IMG/VR virus record: IMGVR_UViG_3300042691_022274
Location: 1 to 25,529 of that record
Direction: 5' to 3' (one strand)
From: a virus
Length of the DNA: 25,529 nucleotides
In this document: piece by piece, positions 11,657 through 24,842 of the stretch
Layout: each line of letters begins with the position of its first letter
Numbering within the stretch: position 1 is the first letter of the stretch
Notes under the pieces: model-generated
Told to the model about the DNA's origin: nothing
What the model saw: only the letters and a program-made list of their open reading frames with translations
Databases searched by the model: none
Position numbers and translations under genes: made by a program

Positions 11657-12445
11657 ATGAATTGTATTCTTTATCTAGTTAGATCTTCCGATCAAGATGT
11701 AGATGATTTTAATAAGTCATTAAAATTGATAGAAGAAAATCTCATACCATATACTTTCAATACTGATGTCTTGGTATTTTGTGAAAAATCGTTTGATGAA
11801 TATAAATCTAAGGTTCAAACAAACTTGAACCTTAGATATGAAACTATTGAATTTAATATTCCCAATTACCCTCAAGAAATATTAGATAAAATTCCTGAGT
11901 TTTTTCCTCACCCAACTCATGGAAATGGTCCAATAGCATGGGGTGATCCTGGATTTTCAATAGGATATCGTCATATGTGTAGATTTTTCTCAGGAGAACT
12001 TTATAACAATGATGTTATAAAAGAGTATGATTATTACTTGAGACTTGATACTGATTCCTTTATTCATACTCCACTTAATTACGATATCTTTAAGTGGGCG
12101 GAAGATAATGAATGTTATTATGGATTTATTGCCCCAGCCATCCAGAAAGATAATCCAAAAGTGATTGAAGGTTTATGGGAAAAGGTAAATGAATTAATCC
12201 CCGAAAACTTTATTGAAGACGGTATGATGTTTTATACCAACTTTGAACTTGGAAAAGTATCGTGGTTCTTGACAAGTGAATATATGAGATTTTATAATGA
12301 ATTGGATAAAACTGGTGGTTTCTATACTAAGAGATGGGGTGACGCTCCAATTAAATATCTTGGTATAAATCTTCTTATGGAACAGAAACATATTATTCCT
12401 GTGAAAGGTTTTACATATCAACATGGCGCAGTTTATACGGTATAA
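11657..12445 (+). CDS. GT15-like (Kre2/Mnt1-type) mannosyltransferase
   Basis: This 262-residue protein has the pattern of family GT15, known mainly from fungal alpha-1,2-mannosyltransferases that use GDP-mannose. Visible features are GFSIGYRHMCRFFSG (about 99-113), YDYYLRLDTDS (124-134, with the acidic metal site), NYDIFKW, and a later KRWGDAPIKYLGINLL followed by YQHG. AGGGG stands 8 nt before the ATG. It is the first gene after a 44-nt gap with a late-promoter motif. A mannosyltransferase fits a cassette beginning with a GDP-mannose enzyme. Confidence 0.8.
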   Translation: MNCILYLVRSSDQDVDDFNKSLKLIEENLIPYTFNTDVLVFCEKSFDEYKSKVQTNLNLRYETIEFNIPNYPQEILDKIPEFFPHPTHGNGPIAWGDPGFSIGYRHMCRFFSGELYNNDVIKEYDYYLRLDTDSFIHTPLNYDIFKWAEDNECYYGFIAPAIQKDNPKVIEGLWEKVNELIPENFIEDGMMFYTNFELGKVSWFLTSEYMRFYNELDKTGGFYTKRWGDAPIKYLGINLLMEQKHIIPVKGFTYQHGAVYTV

Positions 12446-13242
12446 TGGATAAAAACAAATCAGCATATAAATTAAATGGAATTGGTCCGATTTATTACTT
12501 GAATCTCGATGGTCAACCAGAAAGGCGTCAGTATATGGAAGACCAATTTAAATATTGGGAAATCGAAAACTATACTCGCATTTCTGCCTATGATGGTAGA
12601 GAAGATGATTTGAGTGGCATTATTAAAGGAAGATACCCTGAGATGATGTCTTCTGGTGAAATTGGGTGCGTAACTTCTCATCTAAAAGCCATTAAACATT
12701 GGTATGAAACATCAAATAGTCCATATGCAGTCATTATGGAAGATGATTGTAATTTAGATCTTGTCAAGTTTTGGAATTTTACTTGGAATGATTTTTACTG
12801 CAGAATTCCATATGATTGGGATGTGATGCAAATAGCTATTATATGTACGGGTGACGTTCACATAAAAGTACATAAAAGATTTGTAAATGAATTTTCTACA
12901 GCTTGTTATCTTATAACTCGTCATCATGCAGAAAAACTACTTAAGTTCCATGTAAGAGATAACAAGTATAAACTTGATAATGGAGTTAAACCTCGCCCTG
13001 TTGCCGATGATTTGATTTATAATTCGGGTAATACGTATTCTCTACCACTTCTTCTTTATAGAATTGAACTGGGATCTTCTATTCATCCAGATCATATTGA
13101 TGCTTTCCATAGGGGGAATTATGAAGGCCAATATAATCATTGGAGCCAAAAAGGTTCTGATATAACAATCGATGAACTTATGGATTATAATCCTTACTTA
13201 GGTCGAGTAGTTGAAAATTCTTCATCTCAACAAAATACTTGA
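12445..13242 (+). CDS. GT25 family glycosyltransferase (LPS-type)
   Basis: This 265-residue protein matches family GT25, which includes LPS beta-galactosyltransferases. It has IYYLNLDGQPERR near the start (16-28), ISAYDGR (46-52), SSGEIGCVTSHLKAI (69-83), and YAVIMEDDCNL with the acidic triad at 99-101. A later STACYLITRHHAEKLL is also typical. It overlaps the GT15 stop (TAATG) and is the last gene of the cassette. The porin -35 box overlaps its stop codon. It probably adds galactose or a similar sugar to a lipid- or surface-linked glycan. Confidence 0.85.
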   Translation: MDKNKSAYKLNGIGPIYYLNLDGQPERRQYMEDQFKYWEIENYTRISAYDGREDDLSGIIKGRYPEMMSSGEIGCVTSHLKAIKHWYETSNSPYAVIMEDDCNLDLVKFWNFTWNDFYCRIPYDWDVMQIAIICTGDVHIKVHKRFVNEFSTACYLITRHHAEKLLKFHVRDNKYKLDNGVKPRPVADDLIYNSGNTYSLPLLLYRIELGSSIHPDHIDAFHRGNYEGQYNHWSQKGSDITIDELMDYNPYLGRVVENSSSQQNT

Positions 13243-13274
13243 CAAATCTAAAAAAAATCAGTACACTAAATAAG
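13239..13274 (+). promoter_or_regulatory. Porin promoter: sigma-70 plus late-like extension
   Basis: TTGACA at 13239-13244, 17 nt, TACACT at 13262-13267, running into TAAATAAG. The same -35/17/-10-TAAATA layout occurs before psbA and psbD. Confidence 0.7.
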
Positions 13275-13277
13275 TAC

Positions 13278-13302
13278 TTAAGAATTCAGTTGTAATTCTT
13301 AA
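13278..13302 (+). repeat. Perfect inverted repeat in porin 5' UTR
   Basis: TTAAGAATT (13278-13286), 7-nt loop, AATTCTTAA (13294-13302). It falls just inside the expected transcript and would form a 5' hairpin. It may stabilise the mRNA or serve as an operator. Confidence 0.55.
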
Positions 13303-13332
13303 CATTCGTCCTATAGTACATAAACAATTTTT

Positions 13333-14799
13333 ATGAAACTCAAACAACTGATGCTTGCACCTGTTGCTCTGGGAATGGTTGCTCCTGTTGCTGCGAATGC
13401 GGCAGACCTTAACATGGCAGCAGTCAACCAATATTCCTCTGAGCAAGTTACAAGCGTCAATCAACTTTCTGATGTGCAACCCACTGATTGGGCATATCAG
13501 GCACTCAGCAACCTTGTAGAGCGTTATGGTTGCGTTGCTGGTTATGCAAACGGCACCTTTGGTGGTAGTCGTGCAATGACCCGTTATGAGGCAGCAGCAC
13601 TTCTGAATGCTTGTCTTGACCGTGTAACTGAAAATACTGATGAACTCAAGCGTCTTGCTGATGAATTCCGCAATGAGCTCACTACTCTTCAAGGTCGTGT
13701 AGATGGACTGGAGAGCGTTGTTGGTTCTCTTGGAGCAACTCAATTCTCCACCACTACTAAACTGCGTGGTGAAACAAACTTTGTACTCGGTAATGTCGAT
13801 GGTTATCAAGCCAAAGACGGTACTGTAACCCACGCAGCATTTAATTATGATCTGCGCCTGAACCTAGATACTTCGTTTACTGGTCAAGATCTACTTCGCA
13901 CTCGTCTGCGTTCTTCTAACTTTAGTAGCAATCCTTTTGGTTCCAGCTCTTCCCTGTTCAAACTGGATAAGGCAGATAACACCACCAGTGAAGTTGGTAA
14001 CAATGTAGTTATCGACCGTCTGTTCTATCAGTTCCCTGCTTTCAATAACAAAGCAACTCTGACTGCTGGTGCTGCAGTTCGTAACACTGAGATTGCCTGG
14101 GTTCCTTCTGCTTATAAGTCTGGTATTCTTGATTTCTTTGCTGTTGCTGGTACTCCTGGTGTCTATAACAAGGCAACTGGTGCTGGTTTCGGTGTTCAGT
14201 ATGGTAAGAAAGGTCTTGTTGCTGGTGTAAACTACGTTGCTCAAAATGGTAGCGATAGTGAGACTGGTGTATTTGATGAGACTGGTGCTCTGAATACTCT
14301 TACACAAATCGGTTATCGTGGTAAGAACTACGGTGTTGCATTCGGTTATCGTTATGGTACTGAAGGCACTCGTGTTCGCACCTACAACGGTATTGATGGT
14401 GCTTCGGGTACTCTGGTCCCTGGTCAAACCTCCAACGGTTATGCTCTGAACGCATATTGGGAGCCTGAGAAGTCTGGTATTATCCCTGCTATCTCTGCTG
14501 GTTATGGTTGGAACACCGTGAGTGGAACTGCTAGCGATGCTACTGATAGTCAGTCCTGGTTCGCTGGTCTCCAGTGGGCAGATGTATTTGCTAAGGGTAA
14601 CACCGCTGGCGTTGCTGTCGGTCAGGCACCTACTGGCGAAAACCTTGAGAAGTCCACGATGCTTGAGATTTTCTATAAGTATCAAGTGTCTGATAACATC
14701 AGCGTCACCCCTGCTATCTTCTATGCTAGCGATAATCAGCGCCTTGCTGATAACTCCTCTAACTGGGGTGGTGTAGTCCAGACTACCTTCAAGTTCTGA
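13333..14799 (+). CDS. Cyanobacterial-type outer-membrane porin (SLH + OprB-like)
   Basis: This 488-residue protein has the full plan of a cyanobacterial Som/OprB porin. It has a signal peptide (residues 1-23, cleavage after VAANA) and an SLH domain at about 42-98 (LSDVQPTDWAYQAL...CVAGYANGTFGGSRAMTRYEAAALL), which anchors to peptidoglycan-linked polymer. A short coiled coil follows (about 101-132), then a long Gly/Tyr-rich beta-barrel ending in Phe, the signature of outer-membrane assembly. No frameshift is seen. The gene has its own promoter and terminator and is richer in G+C than the cassette before it, suggesting host origin. It may replace host porins, alter uptake, or mask receptors. 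Confidence 0.92.
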   Translation: MKLKQLMLAPVALGMVAPVAANAADLNMAAVNQYSSEQVTSVNQLSDVQPTDWAYQALSNLVERYGCVAGYANGTFGGSRAMTRYEAAALLNACLDRVTENTDELKRLADEFRNELTTLQGRVDGLESVVGSLGATQFSTTTKLRGETNFVLGNVDGYQAKDGTVTHAAFNYDLRLNLDTSFTGQDLLRTRLRSSNFSSNPFGSSSSLFKLDKADNTTSEVGNNVVIDRLFYQFPAFNNKATLTAGAAVRNTEIAWVPSAYKSGILDFFAVAGTPGVYNKATGAGFGVQYGKKGLVAGVNYVAQNGSDSETGVFDETGALNTLTQIGYRGKNYGVAFGYRYGTEGTRVRTYNGIDGASGTLVPGQTSNGYALNAYWEPEKSGIIPAISAGYGWNTVSGTASDATDSQSWFAGLQWADVFAKGNTAGVAVGQAPTGENLEKSTMLEIFYKYQVSDNISVTPAIFYASDNQRLADNSSNWGGVVQTTFKF

Positions 14800-14821
14800 T
14801 AATTCACTCATAAATTAAATC

Positions 14822-14847
14822 AGACCACCTTAGGGTGGTCTTTTTTT
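14822..14847 (+). terminator. Rho-independent terminator after porin
   Basis: AGACCACC (14822-14829), loop TTAG, GGTGGTCT (14834-14841), followed by a run of T to 14847. Confidence 0.9.
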
Positions 14848-14866
14848 GACTTCCTGACACAGTGAC

Positions 14867-14895
14867 TTGACACCTCTTAAGATTTCCTATATAAT
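14867..14895 (+). promoter_or_regulatory. Perfect consensus sigma-70 promoter for hli-petF unit
   Basis: TTGACA (14867-14872), 17 nt, TATAAT (14890-14895): both boxes match the bacterial consensus exactly. It lies 28 nt before the hli start and probably drives strong early expression by host RNA polymerase. Confidence 0.85.
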
Positions 14896-14923: not shown

Positions 14924-15133
14924 ATGACTGTAACCAAAAATGAGTTCGGGCAAATGAATATGTTTGCTAAAGAACCTGCAATGTATATGACCAAGGAAGA
15001 CCTTGAGCGTTATGGTATCGAACCTTATGCTGAGAAAGCTGAGCGTTTAAATGGACGCACTGCGATGATTGGATTTTTGTCGGCAATTATTTCATATGCA
15101 TTGACAGGAAAACTTTTCTTCGGGATCCTCTGA
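14924..15133 (+). CDS. hli: High-light-inducible protein
   Basis: This 69-residue, single-helix, chlorophyll-binding stress protein of the thylakoid helps protect photosystem II from excess light. The family motif ExxNGRxAMxGF is exact here (residues 40-51: ERLNGRTAMIGF) and lies in the membrane helix that ends YALTGKLFFGIL. The N-terminal ~35 residues are a soluble extension. It is the first gene behind a perfect promoter and is followed by a small membrane gene and petF. Hli proteins are standard cargo of cyanophages. Confidence 0.95.
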   Translation: MTVTKNEFGQMNMFAKEPAMYMTKEDLERYGIEPYAEKAERLNGRTAMIGFLSAIISYALTGKLFFGIL

Positions 15134-22677: not shown

Positions 22678-22837
22678 TAAACAAATGTTACGGATTCCTC
22701 ATAATTCGTTACATTGCAACTCCCATTAACCGAGACCTATGGGGAGTATAAAGTACGTCTCTCATATCCCGCCTGAGGGTGGCGGGAGCATAGTAACTCC
22801 ACCATTTCCCTGATGGTCTTACTACTCTTTTAAACAA
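22678..22837 (+). promoter_or_regulatory. Structured psbA leader RNA
   Basis: This is about 160 nt of untranslated leader with three hairpins: ACTCCCAT (22719-22726) with ATGGGGAGT (22739-22747, one bulge); CCCGCC (22768-22773) with GGCGGG (22781-22786); ACCAT (22801-22805) with ATGGT (22813-22817). There is no Shine-Dalgarno sequence before the psbA ATG. PhotoRC RNA motifs are known upstream of psbA in marine cyanobacteria and phages, and this may be one. Confidence 0.5.
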
Positions 22838-24175
22838 ATGACTGCTACAATTTCACGTCAACGACAATCAAATACTTGGGAACAATTCTGCAACTGGGTT
22901 ACTTCAACCGATAATCGTCTGTATGTCGGTTGGTTCGGAGTCCTTATGATTCCTTGCCTACTTGCTGCTACAACTTGTTTCATCATCGCCTTCATCGGTG
23001 CTCCTCCTGTGGACATTGATGGTATCCGTGAACCCGTTGCTGGTTCACTTATGTATGGAAACAACATCATCTCTGGTGCTGTTATCCCTTCGTCCAATGC
23101 TATTGGACTGCACTTTTACCCAATTTGGGAAGCTGCTTCTCTGGATGAGTGGCTATATAATGGAGGACCTTTCCAACTGGTCGTCTTCCACTTTCTGATC
23201 GGTATCTATGCTTATATGGGTCGTGAGTGGGAACTTTCCTATCGTCTTGGAATGCGTCCTTGGATCTGTGTTGCTTACAGCGCACCTGTTGCTGCTGCTT
23301 CTGCAGTGTTCCTGGTGTATCCTTTTGGTCAAGGTTCTTTCTCTGATGCGATGCCCCTGGGTATCTCTGGTACTTTCAACTACATGCTTGTGTTCCAGGC
23401 AGAACATAACATTCTGATGCACCCCTTCCACATGCTTGGAGTTGCTGGTGTCTTCGGTGGTTCACTGTTCTCTGCGATGCACGGTTCTCTGGTTACTTCT
23501 TCACTGGTTCGTGAAACCACCGAGAATGAGTCACAGAACTACGGTTATAAGTTCGGACAAGAAGAAGAGACATACAACATCGTTGCTGCTCACGGTTATT
23601 TCGGACGCCTTATTTTCCAATATGCTTCCTTTAATAACTCACGTTCGCTGCACTTCTTCCTTGCTGCCTGGCCTGTTGTAGGCATCTGGTTCACCGCTCT
23701 TGGTGTTTCTACGATGGCTTTTAATCTCAACGGTCTGAATTTTAACCAGAGTATTCTGGATAGTCAGAGCCGTGTTGTTAATACCTGGGCTGATGTACTT
23801 AACCGTGCTGGTCTGGGCATGGAGGTAATGCACGAAAGGAACGCTAGATTTGTTGGTGTTCTTGCCTAGTAATAGGCATTAGTAAAATCGGGTTAAACGG
23901 GGAAACTCTCTATGAGACAATCCCGTACCAAGTCAGAAAGGGTTTAAGTTTTCTGAAAGGTCTAACGACTAGGTAGTGAGTCCCAACAATAATCTACCCA
24001 CGAATGCCCGACTCCTTAATAAACATAAGGATGAAGAGATAGTCTGAACTTACTGGCGACAGTAAGAAGTAGAGGATAAAGAACCACTACGATAACACAA
24101 TTGCACAACTTCCCACTTGACCTTGCTGCCGCAGAAGCAACTCCTGTTGCTCTAACTGCTCCCGCAATCGGTTGA
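22838..24175 (+). CDS. psbA: Photosystem II D1 protein (split by an intron)
   Basis: D1 is the core reaction-centre protein of photosystem II that is damaged by light. Phage copies keep photosynthesis running during infection. Exon 1 is 22838-23845 (336 codons) and exon 2 is 24104-24175 ([20 protein letters not shown] to Gly). Together they give 359 residues, the normal length. Joining restores RNA-HNFPLD at the conserved C-terminus, with the metal-cluster region intact. Read without splicing, the frame stops at 23867-23869 with a false seven-residue tail. It has five membrane helices. The promoter and leader lie upstream and a terminator follows. Confidence 0.97.
23846..24103 (+). other. Group I intron in psbA (258 nt)
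   Basis: The 5' exon ends in T (GCT) and the intron ends in G (ATTG), as group I splicing requires. Conserved core pieces are visible: CTAACGACTAGG (R-like) and AAGAGATAGTC (S-like), with a P/Q-like ATCGGG...AAACGGGGAAAC earlier. The intron contains no ORF. The homing endonucleases are encoded downstream of the gene. Confidence 0.9.
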
Positions 24176-24254: not shown

Positions 24255-24842
24255 ATGGATTTGCACCAACTAGTAATATCTGAATGTGATAGAAGAGGAT
24301 TGGAACTAATTCATCTTCCCGAAAAACTTGTTCGTCGTTCTGCTGATGTGATTGTAAGTTGTCCCTGCACAGGTCAACGAAATATGAGTATAAGAAACTT
24401 TATTGTTACTTATGAAAAAGGTGGAGAAGCATTCTGTTGTAAGAGGAAATCAAAAGTTGGAAAAAATAATCCTGCATTTGGAAAACCAACTTGGAATGCT
24501 GGAACTGTTGGTGTATCAAAGAGTTATGGATTTTTTGGTTTTAAGGAAGAATGGGCAGACAGAGAAGATTACCTTTATTTTATAGAAACAATCTATGGAA
24601 CTTATAAGATAGGTAGGTCTTTTCACGGAATAAAATATAGGTTCACAGAAACTGTAAAAGAACTTGGTGAATGGAAAGCATCTCATAAGGAGGTATTTGA
24701 TTGTGAAAGATATATCCTAGATACATACAAACATCATCAAAATAAAATTGATGGTATAATAGGTGGTTCAGAGCATTTTGTAAAAGAACTACCGATACAA
24801 GAAGTTATAGATTACGCAAATCTGAAATTAAAAACTAATTGA
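24255..24842 (+). CDS. GIY-YIG-like homing endonuclease
   Basis: This 195-residue protein has residues 106-130 matching the GIY-YIG/T5orf172-type pattern (YLYFIETIYGTYKIGRSF, R129). A glutamate in CERYILDTY (E151) would be the metal ligand. Residues 69-82 (GKNNPAFGKPTWNAG) match the DNA-binding NUMOD3 motif. Cys pairs at C36/C38 and C61/C62 may bind zinc. It stands directly downstream of the intron-containing psbA and probably helps the intron or itself spread into empty psbA alleles. A 13-codon ORF (24242-24283) overlaps its start. Confidence 0.75.
   Translation: MDLHQLVISECDRRGLELIHLPEKLVRRSADVIVSCPCTGQRNMSIRNFIVTYEKGGEAFCCKRKSKVGKNNPAFGKPTWNAGTVGVSKSYGFFGFKEEWADREDYLYFIETIYGTYKIGRSFHGIKYRFTETVKELGEWKASHKEVFDCERYILDTYKHHQNKIDGIIGGSEHFVKELPIQEVIDYANLKLKTN

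Follow-up and report, generated by a model that had tools for sequence, protein, structure and literature searches.

A host-derived porin of freshwater T4-like cyanophages: a candidate outer membrane pore and wall tether without the Yfr1 site of its host relatives

Background

Work on the accessory genes of cyanophages has so far dealt mainly with photosynthesis, carbon, and phosphate. The presence of a cyanobacterial porin gene in a 25.5-kb virus record (hereafter the window, meaning the whole stretch of DNA analyzed) raises the question of what a phage might gain from making an outer membrane protein of its host. The gene content of the window is that of T4-like cyanophages, with high-light, ferredoxin, peroxiredoxin-like, and two endolysin-like genes as well as psbA. 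The explanation preferred here, to which a probability of roughly 0.5 is assigned from sequence evidence, is that the gene, transcribed from a promoter of the phage and not subject to the host small RNA (sRNA) Yfr1, provides a replacement outer membrane pore that also serves as a peptidoglycan tether. The phage porin suggests that the outer membrane is among the resources that lytic phages take into their own hands.

Results and Discussion

Architecture and predicted fold of the porin

The porin gene occupies positions 13333-14799 on the plus strand and is an intact open reading frame of 488 amino acids with an ATG start. Its description in an earlier note as a complete Som/OprB porin is borne out by profile searches, in which the best curated family was the NCBIfam 'iron uptake porin' (por_somb, NF033921; 3.1e-85). 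The match aligns residues 39-488 with the entire profile (1-485 of 485) at 286.6 bits, above the curated cut-off of 100, which places the protein in the full-length Som (SLH-OprB) family; Pfam matches to OprB (4.9e-12) and SLH (1e-7) were also found. The layout is that of Som-type porins, comprising a signal peptide (residues about 1-23, assigned by inspection), a single N-terminal SLH domain (residues 42-88, Pfam SLH), a helical stalk of 53 residues (residues 84-136), and an OprB barrel that ends in an aromatic residue, Phe488. The stalk and the barrel (residues 141-487, predicted to have 16 strands) were delimited in an AlphaFold2 model built from an alignment of 45 sequences (mean pLDDT 75.9), which is weak at residues 1-82, where confidence is mostly low. 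Foldseek matched the model to OprB (4gey), to OmpF/OmpC, and to the tether-porin OmpM1 (8bys/8bym; E about 5e-11), and the SLH domain and stalk of OmpM also match the window porin in sequence (1.6e-16). The modeled protein thus has the predicted OmpM-type combination of SLH domain, stalk, and 16-strand porin. Among the phage porins, conservation of the pore-side loop L3 (0.89) equals that of the strands while the outer loops L1, L7, and L8 vary, a pattern that favors a working channel over a mere decoy.

A short SLH form in the same slot

Other phages, including S-CREM1, S-PM2, and the sources of many IMG/VR contigs, carry a short form of 279-292 amino acids in the same slot, with an SLH domain and a small barrel ending in Phe. 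The short-form model has 8 strands (mean pLDDT 63.9) and matches Ail, OmpW, OmpA, and OmpX. Similarity between the long and short forms stops after the SLH-stalk part, while some of them share leaders and position. Exactly one form was present in each of 21 of 21 large phage records, all of which had been found through one form or the other. Host genomes searched with the short form returned mostly ordinary Som porins, matched in the SLH part only. Existing annotations of the short form ('putative S-layer protein' in S-PM2, NC_006820, 123116-123955; 'iron uptake porin' in S-CREM1, OP535465, 159277-160155) fit poorly with an SLH domain joined to an 8-strand barrel. Judging from the model, the 'S-layer protein' of S-PM2 is more likely a small outer membrane barrel with a wall tether.

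The existence of two forms bears on several potential explanations of the phage porin. SLH/OprB proteins of Synechocystis act in both iron uptake and outer membrane stability (PMC8707739), and OmpM of Veillonella is both tether and channel (PMC10628300). The suggestion in the earlier note that the porin raises nutrient influx is compatible with the conserved L3 and with relatives of the porin that either conduct inorganic ions or support iron uptake (PMC8707739, PMC10628300). Its pure version, in which the phage raises the uptake of iron or inorganic ions and the tether is incidental, is nevertheless considered unlikely. The best curated family is named for iron uptake, the homologue Slr1908 supports iron uptake in Synechocystis (PMC8707739), and dark infection raises host porin transcripts (PMC5082946), all of which agree with it, as does the conservation of L3 among phages; however, the name 'iron uptake porin' is inherited from annotation, and other phages have the predicted 8-strand barrel in this slot. 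Such a small barrel probably conducts little, and pore supply cannot then be what the two forms have in common, a point that also weighs against the preferred explanation.

The opposite simplification, in which the SLH domain and stalk keep the envelope stable up to lysis with the barrel as a mere anchor, appears more doubtful still. The SLH domain and stalk are the sole part common to the otherwise mutually exclusive forms (21 of 21 records), and Synechocystis hypervesiculates when an SLH porin is lost (PMC8707739), both of which speak for a tether. Constraint on the SLH domain and stalk of the long form does not exceed that on the barrel, however; the barrel is constrained at least as much, and L3 is kept. 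We infer that the need common to both forms would be a wall-tied outer membrane protein, to which the long form adds a pore.

Occurrence and origin

Among 50,697 phage records, the long porin was found only in S-SRM01 (71% identity), while relatives were found on 332 IMG/VR stretches with the window porin as query and on 505 with that of S-SRM01, in sets that overlap. The long-form lineage is common in environmental contigs and nearly absent from culture collections (one isolate); neither the paper on S-SRM01 (PMC8557907) nor that on S-CREM1 mentions porins in its text. Host contamination of the viral contigs was rejected, since many copies lie among phage genes, the longest records extend to 284 kb, and S-SRM01 was obtained as an isolate. 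A host origin was likewise rejected for a 64%-identical porin on a contig filed in a Microbacteriaceae metagenome-assembled genome (CALGUV010000018.1), where genes for a ribonucleotide reductase, a high-light protein, and a protein resembling a late sigma factor flank the porin; this is a cyanophage contig, and its porin is the deepest-branching one from a phage.

The earlier note had proposed a phylogeny against host Som porins as a check. In such a tree, where the phage side consisted of 15 representatives (83% identity clusters) and the mis-binned contig, the phage porins form a single clade (UFBoot 100, SH-aLRT 99) that was present in all 200 bootstrap trees and is nested inside the porins of freshwater Cyanobium/Synechococcus, which shows a single capture from freshwater picocyanobacteria. 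Porins were found in 287 of 300 sampled genomes of the host family, and those of the nearest hosts are about 55-62% identical to the window porin. A recent host-to-phage transfer was rejected because no porin in the 300 genomes exceeds 62% identity and because third-position GC content (GC3) has ameliorated. GC3 is 0.36 in the window porin and 0.34 on average in the phage porins versus 0.70-0.86 in host porins, which indicates long residence of the gene in phages. Values of dN/dS between 0.11 and 0.22 in 13 pairwise comparisons indicate that the phage porin is under purifying selection. With phage copies nested among host homologues and maintained by selection, the gene is a candidate auxiliary metabolic gene of host origin. 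The host-derived phage porin is real and widespread, and phage-carried host genes are a known kind; what stands out here is the loss of a host sRNA site and the exchangeable short form.

Promoter, terminator, and neighboring genes

The earlier note had placed the porin between a promoter and a terminator of its own, and both recur among its relatives. The promoter (TTGACA-N17-TACACT, positions 13239-13267, plus strand) is a good match to the sigma-70 consensus, and the glycosyltransferase gene before it ends in a stop codon (13240-13242) that shares bases with the -35 box. A promoter of the form TTGACN-N16/18-TANNNT lies within 200 nt upstream of 145 of 160 phage copies, compared to 269 of 3260 random segments (8%). 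Overlapping the -10 box, ACTAAATAA (13264-13272, plus strand) resembles a T4-type late promoter, and both early and late expression of the porin are possible on this resemblance. Downstream lies an intrinsic terminator (14822-14849, plus strand) with a good match, consisting of a hairpin with an 8-bp stem and a 4-nt loop (14822-14841) followed by a T run; a terminator is found within 120 nt downstream of 114 of 157 related phage porin genes. The combination of conserved promoter and terminator, signal peptide, purifying selection, and a single clade across many phages makes it highly improbable that the protein is a virion component or that the gene is a neutral passenger, even though its surroundings are variable and contain many tRNAs and accessory genes.

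The upstream neighbor (12445-13242, plus strand) encodes a family 25 glycosyltransferase (GT25) and is the last gene of a glycan cassette. The earlier note had set the base composition of the porin apart from that of the glycan genes, and the difference is real (GC 0.466 for the porin versus 0.32-0.34 for the glycosyltransferases), but the porin matches the phage psbA gene of the window (0.465), and it is the AT-rich glycan block that is the outlier. A partnership with the glycan cassette had also been suggested. Such a partnership is only partly supported. Among 135 phage loci, a sample biased toward the window, 64 have a GT25 homologue directly upstream of the porin, which makes it a recurrent rather than an obligatory neighbor; 55 of the 135 long-form loci (and 55 of 111 short-form loci) have a tRNA no more than 600 nt upstream.

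These neighbors are relevant to the idea that the phage remodels the cell surface, with the phage protein displacing or masking a host outer membrane protein that serves as a receptor, so that later phages are shut out, possibly with the help of the glycan cassette. Superinfection exclusion by a phage porin is possible, and a protective role has been proposed for the SLH protein of S-PM2 (PMC2984593). The recurrence of GT25, the outer-membrane-like character of both forms, the variable L1, L7, and L8 of the long form, and the E. coli precedent connecting a phage-borne porin with control of host porins (ipeX, PMC12197685) all fit this idea. On the other hand, L3 is as conserved as the strands, dN/dS of 0.1-0.2 gives no sign of diversifying selection, and the glycan neighbor is missing in about half of the loci, so that surface remodeling is judged rather unlikely as the main function. 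We also know of no receptor role of Som/OprB porins for these phages, which counts against it.

The gene following the terminator (14924-15133, plus strand) encodes a high-light-inducible protein and has its own promoter (14867-14895, TTGACA-N17-TATAAT), which matches the consensus at 12 of 12 positions; high-light genes are often found downstream of both the long and the short form. The first residues of this protein match the Psb34 model NF033486, below cut-off. Elsewhere in the window, a PhotoRC-II RNA (RF01717) was found at 22709-22801, and the open reading frame of psbA (22838-23869) extends into a group I intron (RF00028, 23836-24066) and terminates there, its final residues being unlike the D1 C-terminus; a homing endonuclease-like open reading frame follows at 24255. 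A wcaG RNA motif (RF01761, 104.9 bits; 2036-2133) precedes the epimerase gene at the start of the glycan cassette, and the motif also precedes the glycan genes of S-SRM01.

A structured leader shared by phage porins

Between promoter and start codon, the window leader contains a stem-loop, TTAAGAATTC...GTAATTCTTAA (13280-13302, plus strand). Folding is retained across relatives: over 64 distinct phage leaders, whose hairpin sequences differ, the mean folding z-score was -2.77 versus -0.33 for the control; the window leader alone scores -1.21. The stem-loop is followed by a box, CGTCCTATAGTAC (13304-13316, plus strand), with the consensus [TC]GTC[CG]T[AT]TAG, which in phage porin leaders reads TGTCGTTTAG or TGTCCTATAG and usually lies 24-30 nt before the ATG. 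The box occurs 137 times in 3.28 Mb of phage loci. Of these occurrences, 107 are at this position upstream of a long porin gene, and about 20 of the remaining ones precede short SLH genes; counted by distinct leaders, it is present in 79 of 116 long-form and 10 of 69 short-form leaders. The two forms are found behind two shared leader types, one with the sigma-70 promoter and the box and the other with the end of a tRNA, then a hairpin and CTAAATA, a motif that recurs in the leaders of both forms. In some phages the box starts an MSFST or MSYRT reading, either in-frame or out-of-frame. An upstream ATG (MSFST.../MSYRT...) as the general true start was rejected, as the nucleotides are conserved and the frame is not.

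Loss of the Yfr1 pairing site

In Prochlorococcus MED4, porin mRNAs are among the targets of Yfr1, and in Nostoc this sRNA represses them (PMC6778093, PMC6974561). The sequence GTGTGAGGA, which is the complement of the conserved Yfr1 motif, was found before the start codon of host porin genes in 79 of 117 cases exactly and in 94 of 117 with at most one mismatch (0.46 expected by shuffling), counts that include several genes without the site whose starts were mis-chosen. It lies mostly 11-17 nt before the start codon, and the nearest host relatives (up to 62% identity) carry it too. Before phage porins, GTGTGAGGA was found in 0 of 163 copies with at most one mismatch allowed. Hosts do encode the sRNA, as Rfam RF01116 (Yfr1) matches 5 of 5 host genomes tested and yfr1 lies directly upstream of trxA in 7 of 7 checked. 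A phage Yfr1, or its motif acting as a counter-sRNA, was rejected as a candidate, since none was found among 15 phage records.

Predicted pairing follows the same division. The median duplex energy with the single-stranded segment of Yfr1 was -19.0 kcal/mol for host leaders versus -2.6 kcal/mol for phage porin leaders, compared to -4.3 kcal/mol for shuffled phage leaders and -1.8 kcal/mol for the window. Other phage genes give -7.2 kcal/mol, from which the 107 distinct porin leaders differ with p = 7.5e-14, a value that is overstated because the leaders share ancestry and are not independent observations. The window porin has no Yfr1-complementary site at its start codon, which sets it apart from a Yfr1-regulated porin mRNA, and a comparison of leaders demonstrates that the known pairing site is gone from the phage porin genes sampled. 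The host porin 3' regions often hold CTCCTCACAC, the Yfr1 motif on the coding strand, about 25-70 nt past the stop codon (for example, loci L292, L296, and L313), and these are possibly 3'-UTR sRNAs of the Yfr10 kind acting on porins.

Escape from Yfr1 may have been under selection. However, a Shine-Dalgarno sequence is present in only 10 of 34 window genes and 15 of 44 S-SRM01 genes, and because phage genes are often without one, loss of GTGTGAGGA may be a by-product of a phage-style leader. It is tentatively proposed, at somewhat less than even odds, that cyanophages evade the host's envelope sRNA through a porin free of the site and a private structured leader, uncoupling porin output from Yfr1, with the 8-strand tether protein playing the same part in related phages. 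With matched host and phage leaders at hand, one can ask directly whether it benefits a phage when a gene it has captured escapes the small RNAs of the host. The earlier note mentions neither the missing Yfr1 site nor the private structured leader nor the exchangeable short form.

Proposed function

A replacement pore and tether would unite these observations as follows. A freshwater T4-like cyanophage lineage would have captured a host Som porin once. The gene would now form a transcription unit by itself, with a promoter, a structured leader, and a terminator that belong to the phage. The signal peptide would direct secretion of the porin, which would fold as a 16-strand outer membrane pore, while the SLH domain and stalk would hold the outer membrane to the wall polymer. 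As host envelope synthesis declines, the phage porin may sustain the supply of pore and tether in the infected cell, and with the pairing site lost, the porin-repressing host sRNA would be unable to act at the start codon. At the level of sequence, the architecture, single origin, purifying selection, conserved promoter, leader structure, and terminator, and the presence of the Yfr1 site in hosts and not in phages are established. Export, pore and tether activity, and a benefit to the phage are what we infer from them.

Comparison with known systems

The closest known counterpart is gp283 of S-SRM01 ('porin', NC_070963), which is 71% identical to the window porin over its full length and has its own leader with the same kind of leader box; it differs in having a tRNA array upstream and a Dps-like gene downstream, and it is called a porin in its annotation only. 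Host Som/OprB SLH porins (NF033921; Slr1908 and the SomA/SomB type) share the full-length domain match and the architecture with the window porin but, unlike the phage copies, have a Yfr1 site over the ribosome-binding site and a high GC3 (0.70-0.86). The short proteins of S-PM2 and S-CREM1 are similar in their SLH domain, short helical part, and barrel with terminal Phe, with a predicted 8 strands instead of 16. OmpM of Veillonella (8bym, 8bys) has the same succession of SLH domain, helical stalk, and 16-strand porin, and combines tether and channel activity, as predicted for the window porin; in contrast, OmpM is cellular, distant in sequence (only the SLH domain and stalk align), and binds a different wall modification. 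Porins are also carried and expressed by lambdoid phages of E. coli, namely Lc of PA-2 and NmpC of DLP12, which are linked to RNA-based porin regulation; unlike the window porin, these belong to temperate phages, have no SLH tether, and form an unrelated barrel. The link to RNA control also differs between the two groups: with E. coli ipeX a phage RNA acts on a host porin (PMC12197685), whereas in the cyanophage porin it is the site for a host RNA that has been lost.
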